52,135 nt of DNA from assembly GCA_023511725.1 (NCBI GenBank), contig JAIMAY010000022.1, positions 1 through 52,135 of the forward strand, in the 5' to 3' direction. Shown one piece after another: positions 34,328-37,197 of this stretch. Within the stretch, counting starts at the first letter, position 1; each line of letters opens with the position of its first letter. Both the position numbers and the translations under genes were made by a program. The notes beneath the pieces are model-generated. The model saw nothing but the letters and a program-made list of their open reading frames with translations, searched no databases and was not told where the DNA came from. The DNA comes from Alicyclobacillus sp. Lineage in GTDB: Bacteria; Bacillota; Bacilli; Alicyclobacillales; Alicyclobacillaceae.

Positions 34328-34399
34328 AACCGTCTGGCCCGCCCATCCGCGTATGTGCCCGGCATCGACGAGCCGAGGCGAGTAGAGGAGGAACCTCGC

Positions 34400-35668
34400 A
34401 TGGCCGACGCACGGCCCGCGCCCAGCCCCAGGCAGCTGCGCCTTTGGGTGACCATCTTGGTGGCGGGGGCGGGGATCTCCAGCATTGGGGATTTCATCTA
34501 CCTGGTCGCCATCAATGTGCTGGTGTTGGAGAGGACCCACTCGGTCACGGCCGTGGCGGGGCTGTGGGCCGTGTCGCGCGTGGCCGCGCTCGTGGTGGGG
34601 CCGTGGGCGGGTAGTGTGACTGACAGATACCCCCGCCGCGAACAACTCATCCTCATCGAGCTGTGTCGGGCGGCGCTGCTTGCGGTACTGCCCCTGCTTT
34701 CTAACGTCATCTTGATGTATGCTGATCTCTTTCTTCTTGGCGCCGCGACGGTGTTCTTTCAAAACGCCTCACTGCCGTACCGGACGGCACTGATTCCGGC
34801 GGATAAGCAGAAGCGTGTCAATGCACTGTCCAGCACGCTGCAGTTCAGCGCGTTCATCACAGGTCCTGCCATCGCCGGCGCGCTCATGGCCGCGGGTCAC
34901 CTGGCGCTGCCACTGTGGCTCGACGCCGTGAGCTTCCTCGGATCGGCGTTGAGTTTCCTGCTCCTGCCCGGCGTGGCGGTGCCACAGACGGAGAGTCACG
35001 GCTCCTCCCTCTGGCGGGCGGTCCGCGATGATGCGCGGGCGGTGTGGGCCTTTCTTCGCGATCACGCCACCTTCCTCACCCTCTACATCCTCTTCGCCCT
35101 GATGATGCTGCTCGGCTCAACGGCCGATGCACAGGAGGTCGTGTTTGCGCAGGAGGCGCTGCACCTCGGGCAACTTGGCTACGGCATGATGGTGACGGCG
35201 GCGGGGGTGGGATTTGTGGCGGGATCAGTCCTGCTATCCCTGTGGGCCCACCGCCTGCCGACGCGCCTCTTGGTGGCGGCAGGGGCCGTACTTAACGCCG
35301 GGGGCTACTTGGTCTATGCATGCGCGCAGGGCTTTTGGTCTGCGGTGACGGGGCTGGTCATCCTCGGTATCTTCGGATCAGCGCTCAACGTGGGCTGGAC
35401 GACGTACATGCAGCGCGTCGTGCCCGTCGCTTGGATGGGTCGCTTGAACAACGTCGTCGGTCCGCCGCAACAGGTGCTCACCATCGTGTTCATGCTGCTG
35501 GGCGGCGTGGTCAGCGGCTCTTTCGGGGTGCGCGCGCTGATGGTCAGCATGACCATCCTGATGACGCTGGCTTCCCTCGTCCTCGCGCTGCTCGTCAACA
35601 GCCGATCCGGCCGCACCCAGATGGCCGACGTCGACCTGCCGGCGGGCGGCGAGCATGTGGCGGGGTGA
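34400..35668 (+). CDS. MFS transporter
   Basis: The 422-aa protein has about twelve membrane helices and is of the MFS_3 type (GISSIGDFIYLVAINVLVLE start; VGPWAGSVTDRYPRREQLIL loop 2-3 motif). ATG 34400 is chosen because GAGGAGG lies nine bases upstream; an in-frame GTG at 34355 has no site. The ribosome binding site lies in the loop of a short hairpin GCGAG/CTCGC (34378-34399) that abuts the start codon. Similar genes act as drug or macrolide efflux pumps, but the substrate is not shown here. Confidence 0.85.
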   Translation: MADARPAPSPRQLRLWVTILVAGAGISSIGDFIYLVAINVLVLERTHSVTAVAGLWAVSRVAALVVGPWAGSVTDRYPRREQLILIELCRAALLAVLPLLSNVILMYADLFLLGAATVFFQNASLPYRTALIPADKQKRVNALSSTLQFSAFITGPAIAGALMAAGHLALPLWLDAVSFLGSALSFLLLPGVAVPQTESHGSSLWRAVRDDARAVWAFLRDHATFLTLYILFALMMLLGSTADAQEVVFAQEALHLGQLGYGMMVTAAGVGFVAGSVLLSLWAHRLPTRLLVAAGAVLNAGGYLVYACAQGFWSAVTGLVILGIFGSALNVGWTTYMQRVVPVAWMGRLNNVVGPPQQVLTIVFMLLGGVVSGSFGVRALMVSMTILMTLASLVLALLVNSRSGRTQMADVDLPAGGEHVAG

Positions 35669-35822: not shown

Positions 35823-35937
35823 AAGGAGGGCGCCCGCGTGAATTATCATCGTCCCATCTGATCACCTCAGGGCTCAGGCCCCGCATCGACCGAACATCAT
35901 CGGCCCCCGACGGGGCCACTGAGGTGATCCGCAATTG
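35823..35937 (+). promoter_or_regulatory. Candidate translational attenuator with 7-codon leader peptide
   Basis: A leader reading frame begins at GTG 35838, eight bases after AAGGAGG (35824-35829 with flanking A), and encodes MNYHRPI before TGA 35859-35861. The stop overlaps the first base pairs of an 11-bp perfect inverted repeat, GATCACCTCAG (35860-35870) and CTGAGGTGATC (35919-35929). The 3' arm contains GAGGTGAT, the ribosome binding site of the MFS gene that starts at TTG 35935. Between the arms, GGCCCC-CGAC-GGGGCC (35902-35917) makes a second hairpin. The plan matches erm/cat/cmlA attenuators: a ribosome stalled on the leader would occupy the 5' arm and free the buried site. Confidence 0.6.
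35838..35861 (+). CDS. Leader peptide MNYHRPI, putative
   Basis: The frame GTG-AAT-TAT-CAT-CGT-CCC-ATC-TGA has its own well-placed ribosome binding site (AAGGAGGG, eight bases upstream) and ends on the edge of the inverted repeat that hides the downstream MFS start. It is too short to be recognised by similarity; its reality rests on the position and the ribosome binding site. Confidence 0.5.
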   Translation: MNYHRPI

Positions 35938-37197
35938 CATAGACGAGATTGGAGTCGGTATCGTCCGTTCTTGTGGCTGACGGCGGGGACCGCGCTGTCG
36001 GTGCTGGGTGATCAAGCCGGCTGGATGGCCCTCCTGTGGTGGGTGATGTCGCGGCACCTAGCAACGGTGTGGATGGGCGCGCTTTCGCTGAGTTACGGCG
36101 TGGCGGGTGCTATCGGCGGGGTGGTGGCCGGCTGGTTGATGGACCGGTACGCCCCGCGGGCACTGATGCTGGTGGACGCCACCGTTCAGGGGCTGATCTT
36201 TCTAGTCATGACCCTCGCCGCCTGGGCGTGGCCGGCGCCGCCGTGGCTGCTCTGCATGCTGCTGTTTGTGGCGGGGCTGCTCAGTCCCGTGACCCCGGTC
36301 GGGGCCATGACGGTGCTTCCCGACATCGTCCCGGCGCATGCGCTGGTTCAGGCCAATGCTTGGGACGAGACGTTGTGGCAAGGGGCGCAGCTGGCGGGAC
36401 CGCTGCTGGGAGGACTCCTGATCTCCACCGTCGGCGTACCGGGTGCACTGCTGTGGGATGTGTGCACGTTCGCTCTGTGCGCGTTCTGCCTGACGCACCT
36501 GCCGCGCGTGAAGCCTCGCTGTGACGTTGCGGAGTCAGCGGGTCGGGCGGCGGGCGTTGCGCCAGGTTCATGGGGCTGGAGGGCTGCACGCACTGTGGCT
36601 GTCCAGCTGGCGGACGGGCTTCGGGCGCTGTTGTCCGTCCGCATCATCGTGGTCATCACGCTGGCCGCCTTTGTCCTGAACCTGGCCTATGGCGGGCTGG
36701 AAGTGGCGCTGCCTCTGTTCGTGCATCACCGCCTCGGCCAGAGCGCCGCTGTACTCGGGATGCTCTGGTCCGCGAACGCTGCGGGCCTGCTGGCGTCCAC
36801 GACCGTGATGGTTTTTGGGCGGATCGGGAACGGGCTTGTCGGAGAGCGCTGGTTGGCGCTCATGGTGGCCGGGATGGGCGCCGCCTTGGTGCCGCTGGCC
36901 TGGGTCAGCACCCCATGGCAGGTCGCCGTTTGCTTGGGGCTTGCAGGGCTGTGCTTCGGCCCCTACGCACCCCTCTGCCGATCCGTCATCCAGCGCGCAC
37001 TCGCCGCGGACCTCCGCGGTCGCGTGCTGGGCCTTCGGGCGACAGTGCTCAGCCTTGCCGGCCCAATGGGTGGCTTCATCGCGGGCGAAGGGCTCCGGTG
37101 GATCACATCGCCGGTGTGGCTGAGTTGCACGGGGAGCTTGCTGGTTTGCCTCGGCGTCGGCATGCGGTGGTTGTGCCGCGTAACGTGGGTGGGGTAG
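35935..37197 (+). CDS. MFS transporter, putative attenuator-controlled exporter
   Basis: The 420-aa protein has twelve predicted membrane helices (RYRPFLWLTAGTALSVLGDQAG at the start; VVAGWLMDRYAPRALMLVDA loop motif between helices 2 and 3). It is related to the MFS_3 exporter group like the previous gene, but only distantly, so this is not a recent duplication. The start is TTG 35935; GAGGTGAT, six to seven bases upstream, is the 3' arm of a long inverted repeat. Regulation at translation by a stalled leader ribosome would fit an antibiotic-inducible exporter. The 35669-35822 stretch upstream shows no clear promoter. Confidence 0.85.
   Translation: MHRRDWSRYRPFLWLTAGTALSVLGDQAGWMALLWWVMSRHLATVWMGALSLSYGVAGAIGGVVAGWLMDRYAPRALMLVDATVQGLIFLVMTLAAWAWPAPPWLLCMLLFVAGLLSPVTPVGAMTVLPDIVPAHALVQANAWDETLWQGAQLAGPLLGGLLISTVGVPGALLWDVCTFALCAFCLTHLPRVKPRCDVAESAGRAAGVAPGSWGWRAARTVAVQLADGLRALLSVRIIVVITLAAFVLNLAYGGLEVALPLFVHHRLGQSAAVLGMLWSANAAGLLASTTVMVFGRIGNGLVGERWLALMVAGMGAALVPLAWVSTPWQVAVCLGLAGLCFGPYAPLCRSVIQRALAADLRGRVLGLRATVLSLAGPMGGFIAGEGLRWITSPVWLSCTGSLLVCLGVGMRWLCRVTWVG

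Follow-up and report, generated by a model that had tools for sequence, protein, structure and literature searches.

The leaders of cmlA and fexA are translational attenuators of phenicol exporters of the major facilitator superfamily (MFS) (PMC5418344). Drug-dependent arrest at a stop codon has a precedent in the leader MsrDL with erythromycin (PMC10314930), and for ToiL a stall at termination has been inferred with the same drug (PMC12121999). The subject of this study is a seven-codon leader frame and its adjoining stem, located in front of an MFS exporter gene of Alicyclobacillus sp. (GenBank assembly GCA_023511725.1, contig JAIMAY010000022.1). The whole stretch analysed, referred to here as the window, comprises 52,135 nucleotides (nt; positions 1 to 52,135 of the forward strand). 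The leader and stem probably form a translational attenuator, which would act by sequestration of the exporter's Shine-Dalgarno (SD) sequence and be induced by drug arrest of a ribosome near the end of the leader. An earlier note on this DNA had read the architecture as an attenuator, and this is supported by the conservation of the leader and covariation of the stem in relatives. The inducer, we infer, is a ribosome-targeting drug.

Leader and stem in the window

The leader is preceded by its own SD, AAGGAGG (35823-35829; all features of this locus lie on the + strand). The frame itself, GTG AAT TAT CAT CGT CCC ATC TGA (35838-35861), encodes VNYHRPI, or MNYHRPI-stop when GTG is read as Met. 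The 5' arm of the sequestering stem, GATCACCTCAG (35860-35870), shares two bases with the leader stop and forms a perfect 11-bp inverted repeat with the 3' arm, CTGAGGTGATC (35919-35929). Within the 3' arm lies the exporter SD, GAGGTGAT (35922-35929), followed by the MFS gene (35935-37197), which encodes 420 amino acids from a TTG start backed by alignment with relatives. Just 5' of the SD arm is a perfect 6-bp inner hairpin, GGCCCC-CGAC-GGGGCC (35902-35917). The frame with its own SD, the overlap of its stop with one arm of a perfect repeat whose other arm holds the MFS ribosome binding site, and this second hairpin had all been described in the earlier note and were found as it gave them. 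A G-rich then C-rich stretch, gggctcaggcccc (35870-35883), may form a further small inner hairpin or serve as an alternative partner of the G-rich segment 35912-35917; this helix is mostly invariant among relatives and carries little weight as evidence.

Both strands of the window were scanned for an SD, a frame of 3-14 codons, a stop at one arm of a repeat of at least 9 bp, an SD in the other arm and a long frame thereafter. The leader locus was the sole match, and the layout was absent from 60 first-order Markov simulations of the window, even when the long frame was not required. The 74-nt hairpin alone folded better than 200/200 shuffles (z -3.72). The 138-nt stretch around the leader did not fold better than its shuffles (z -0.56), and the weight of the case therefore rests on comparative evidence.

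Recurrence of the layout in relatives

The source genome is a 2.66 Mb draft, and its named relatives are Alicyclobacillus. Including the window, the layout was found before homologous MFS genes at 26 loci in 25 genomes of the Alicyclobacillaceae and a few other Bacilli. Codons, SDs and spacing were tabulated for 25 loci, G047 being a 26th that was added later. The leader-bearing exporters are mostly 29-50% identical to that of the window. A first group, with exporters 42-50% identical, includes A. kakegawensis, A. pomorum, Alicyclobacillus sp. ALC3, Alicyclobacillus HOT.MB2.91 (two loci), a Bacillota metagenome-assembled genome and others; among its peptides are MIHRPI, MTHRPI, MINTRIRPI, MINTRKRPI, MINSRKRPI, MNRTTRPI, MVYRHRPI and one MVCPI. 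The second group, with exporters ~30-38% identical and another stem sequence, contains MHRPI, MHRLI, MFRIFTI, MFRKLPI, MFRTFPI, MSMNLPI and MFPSTPI. Additional leaders in the Alicyclobacillaceae are MNRPI and two that end in Pro-Gly-stop, while two other Bacilli families contribute MRD and MTMPI (or MPI if translation starts at the second ATG, whose SD spacing is better).

A purine-rich SD is present 6-10 nt before the start in 24/25 tabulated leaders. In G091, the exception, 1 nt separates the SD from the first ATG and 7 nt separate it from the next in-frame ATG. A covariance model trained on 17 of the loci recovered one new Alicyclobacillaceae locus, G047, with MFKTMPI-stop and an MFS frame; as the model contains the Pro-Ile columns, this locus is independent for the start codon, SD and MFS gene and not for the motif. 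A phylum-wide search of 398 genomes returned no further close exporters, and among the matches listed from plasmid records there were distant MFS proteins alone, below 30%.

Several individual loci depart from the common form. Leaders of 11 codons ending in Pro-Gly-stop (L139 and L140) have a much longer loop (~90 nt) that leads to an SD arm of the same kind. In another Bacilli family, L086 carries the same layout with a three-codon Met-Arg-Asp-stop leader (~1500-1620, - strand), which may be an arrest signal of another sort or one that has decayed. The exporter frame is interrupted while the leader and stem are intact in L034, L035, L036 and L016, the complete genome of ALC3 being among the affected relatives.

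Conserved end of the leader peptide

The leaders vary from 3 to 11 codons across the 26 loci and their N-terminal sequence is variable. Their end is conserved: Ile-stop is present in 23/26, Pro as the penultimate residue in 23/26 and Pro-Ile-stop in 21/26 (20/25 of the tabulated loci). At the 25 tabulated ends Pro is encoded by CCC, CCA or CCG, Ile by ATC or ATT, and the stop is TGA, TAA or TAG. As the codons for Pro and Ile vary only synonymously, selection acts on the amino acids and not on the RNA letters. Conservation of the heptapeptide, which had been suggested as a check, thus holds for the end, (Arg)-Pro-Ile-stop, and for its register with the stem, and fails for the peptide as a whole. 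The Arg/Lys-X-Arg/Lys motif of macrolide arrest (+X+) is absent from the window peptide and occurs, as RKR, RIR or RHR, in four relatives only. The claim that the peptide matches no known stalling motif stands within the searchable literature.

Covariation and register of the stem

At 25/25 tabulated loci the distance from the stop to the stem is 0-2 nt, despite leaders of 3-11 codons. The stem is therefore registered on the stop and not on the start. When the arms were anchored by hand on the SD and the stop, the first nine pairs were formed in 94% of cases, a figure lowered by the wrongly anchored row of G044, compared with at most 49% when the arms were slid. Compensatory changes in this count include A-U to G-C at pair 7, G-C to U-A at pair 8 and C-G to G-C at pair 12.

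With the raw MAFFT alignment as input, RNAalifold did not return the main stem, because the 3' arms of the two stem groups had not been aligned with each other; it was recovered with a structure-aware alignment. There, 94.6% of cells were paired, against 41-56% after sliding by 1-3 columns, although this alignment is fitted to the structure and so biased towards it, a fitting from which the hand-anchored count is free. Double-sided changes were seen in 11/19 pairs, and 0/500 shuffles reached the observed values. Five of the double-changed pairs fall in the basal stem and five, out of six pairs, in the inner hairpin before the SD. The covariation that the earlier note had named as a check on the stem is thus present, in the form of compensatory changes in relatives.

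Ribosome position and proposed mechanism

The effect of a ribosome on the leader was computed by masking the RNA up to 15 nt beyond the first base in the peptidyl (P) site. For the window, the predicted chance that the exporter SD is fully free was 7e-9 with no ribosome; a ribosome placed on the start codon gave 7e-10, and one placed on the last sense codon 1.6e-3. The gain in predicted SD freedom is thus ~10^5-fold for a ribosome on the last codon, and there is none for one on the start codon. The medians of the 25 loci were 1e-6, 7e-8 and 3e-2, respectively. Predicted opening of the stem sets in only once the ribosome has reached the last two or three codons, and Pro in the P site is almost as good as the last codon. 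The anatomy therefore requires a ribosome to pause at the leader's end, precisely where the sole conserved feature of the peptide is located.

Without the drug, ribosomes would quickly cross the short leader and be released at the stop. The stem directly after the stop would then close over the MFS ribosome binding site, a pairing to which the anatomy and covariation attest, and keep the exporter silent. A drug-arrested ribosome at the leader end would, in the computed geometry, free the binding site and allow the exporter to be made. The exporter could then pump the compound out, as its family suggests. The signal of the drug-bound ribosome is placed in Pro-Ile-stop because only the end residues and the stem register are conserved and the rest varies. 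These two features suggest arrest at the termination step, when Ile occupies the P site and the stop codon the aminoacyl (A) site, or else arrest while the P site holds Pro and the A site Ile.

A more speculative proposal, for which we see some chance, is that of a minimal sensor: Pro-Ile, or a like pair, before any stop would arrest the drug-bound ribosome at termination, even in Met-Pro-Ile-stop. The signal would then lie in the peptidyl transferase centre and not in the exit tunnel, and a blocker of release, with thermorubin as one candidate, would take the place of a classical macrolide as inducer. Thermorubin originates from a thermophile and blocks release by release factor 2 (RF2) ~550-fold (PMC9938272), while XPX motifs are enriched in inverse toeprinting with erythromycin (PMC13410324). 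Both are leads for the inducer and not tests of it.

The exporter family

The window exporter matches MFS_1. Its best NCBIfam matches, TIGR00900 (H+ antiporter), EntS, MefB and Tap, are all far below cut-off. The FexB match reaches 18.7 bits against a cut-off of 950, and the protein does not belong to the CmlA/FexA phenicol family. The weak matches to TIGR00900, Tap and Mef are consistent with a drug pump of the DHA3 group. Among solved structures the exporter had no match. In a tree of 27 proteins, 18/18 leader-bearing pumps fall on one side of a 100/99 branch. Neither leader nor stem was found before the nine related pumps of another Bacilli family (among L106-L117) whose upstream regions were examined. 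In two relatives, L012 and L013, the exporter gene is closely followed on its 3' side by a CRISPR-like repeat array (GTTGATCCGCCGAGATCGTCGGCGGCCCCATTGAAGC).

Alternative explanations

Several observations weigh against a drug-induced attenuator. The exporter scores far below the curated cut-offs of every named resistance family. By eye, no resistance genes were recognised in the flanking genes of the relatives, whose contexts differ, and these offer no hint of an inducer. No promoter was recognised in the window. The Pro-Ile motif is not absolute, its exceptions being two Pro-Gly, one Thr-Ile, one Leu-Ile and one MRD-stop, and the broken MFS frames of several relatives indicate that the exporter is dispensable in some.

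The strongest of the rival explanations, though an unlikely one, is an upstream open reading frame (uORF) for general translation stress, as with toiL of E. coli, at which many unrelated inhibitors would stall ribosomes on various codons. ToiL does use the same release of an SD and senses at least five drug classes (PMC12121999), and very short leaders offer few codons on which to stall. However, toiL pairs along its whole frame so that any stall works, whereas here the stem follows the stop, the computed opening needs the last one to three codons and the end motif is conserved. Plain translational coupling, in which passing ribosomes melt a sensorless SD hairpin to give constant low expression, would profit from the same anatomy: the stem is of short range, each passage to the stop briefly opens it and the leaders are well primed with SDs. 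It gives no account of why Pro-Ile persists through changes in the codons and elsewhere in the peptide, or of the strict placement of the stem after the stop, and is decidedly improbable.

Amino-acid attenuation would assign the sensing to the Pro and Ile codons, which are indeed the conserved ones and at which any stall would open the stem. There is only one codon of each, however, whereas in classical attenuators the cognate codon is repeated in runs; one or both are missing from G225 (MRD-stop) and G022 (FTI-stop), and the transporter most resembles Tap/Mef-type drug pumps. This leaves it very improbable. Chance, or non-functional conservation by recent descent, would draw on the homology of the sequences and the nearly identical stems of the first group. 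The probability of this is negligible, as it is already refuted by the comparative data, namely the divergence of the exporters, the compensatory changes in the stem, the failure of shuffles and slides and the 0/60 simulated windows. A transcription terminator, as in attenuation of the MsrDL type, was also weighed and found improbable: no terminator with a U-run was found at the window stem, nor any U-run after the stem in the relatives' sequences examined.

Other features of the window

A second MFS gene (34355-35668, +) lies directly upstream of the leader and is itself preceded by a GNAT acetyltransferase gene. A fluoride riboswitch (1400-1476, -; Rfam RF01734, 55.6 bits) is located directly upstream of a gene of the Na_H_Exchanger family (112-1257, -), which is probably a fluoride-induced antiporter. 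At the very edge of the contig there is a match to the catalytic domain of a group II intron (6-76, +), and the end of this intron may have broken the assembly there.

Comparison with known systems

Rfam gave no credible match for the leader element when the window and its relatives were searched. In the papers searched, no description of such Alicyclobacillus leaders or of a Pro-Ile-stop arrest motif was found; overlap with the regulatory frame described for another drug class, the orthosomycins, is possible. If confirmed, this would be a new family of leader peptides that has an arrest signal of its own, Pro-Ile-stop, and occurs in heat- and acid-loving Bacilli, not in clinical strains; it would assign a function to a drug-pump family that has no name. 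It would also offer a natural reporter of compounds, drugs or natural products, that halt ribosomes at termination. As the leaders are so short that sequence comparison almost fully defines the arrest signal, the search for the inducer and structural study would be direct.

Like the present locus, cmlA and fexA have a short leader with its own SD and a hairpin that hides the SD of an MFS exporter gene, but the exporter is of another family and the leader peptide is, as far as known, unrelated. The leaders of cmlA and fexA have an internal arrest motif, and their stem overlaps the leader codons. Here, in contrast, the conserved motif closes the leader, and the stem follows the stop. MsrDL (MYLIFM-stop) serves a macrolide resistance operon with an MFS pump, mefA/msrD. 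It acts through a terminator in transcriptional attenuation, whereas here the SD itself is paired and there is no U-run terminator, and it ends in F-M-stop with UAA favoured, compared with a P-I-stop end followed by UGA, UAA or UAG.

The stalled ribosome on the ToiL uORF of topAI-yjhQ in E. coli likewise frees a downstream SD (PMC12121999), but within a toxin-antitoxin operon, by pairing along the whole frame and in response to several drug classes. In ermC a ribosome on the leader ermCL also controls a hidden SD, though that of a methylase gene, by four-arm refolding and with an internal arrest motif. To our knowledge, ToiL has no Pro-Ile end. The short frame mgtQ of Salmonella similarly controls the hidden SD of a membrane transporter gene (PMC8092293), but relies on low Mg2+ and on acidic residues that destabilise the ribosome, which the leaders here almost entirely lack. 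With attenuators of the ermC, cat and cmlA kind the locus shares a leader with its own SD, a covarying hairpin that pairs with the SD and a peptide under selection, as well as, by computation only, an SD freed by a parked ribosome. Judged by its sequences, this looks like a new family of leader peptides within a known kind of attenuator, with an unusual-looking arrest signal at the end of the frame.
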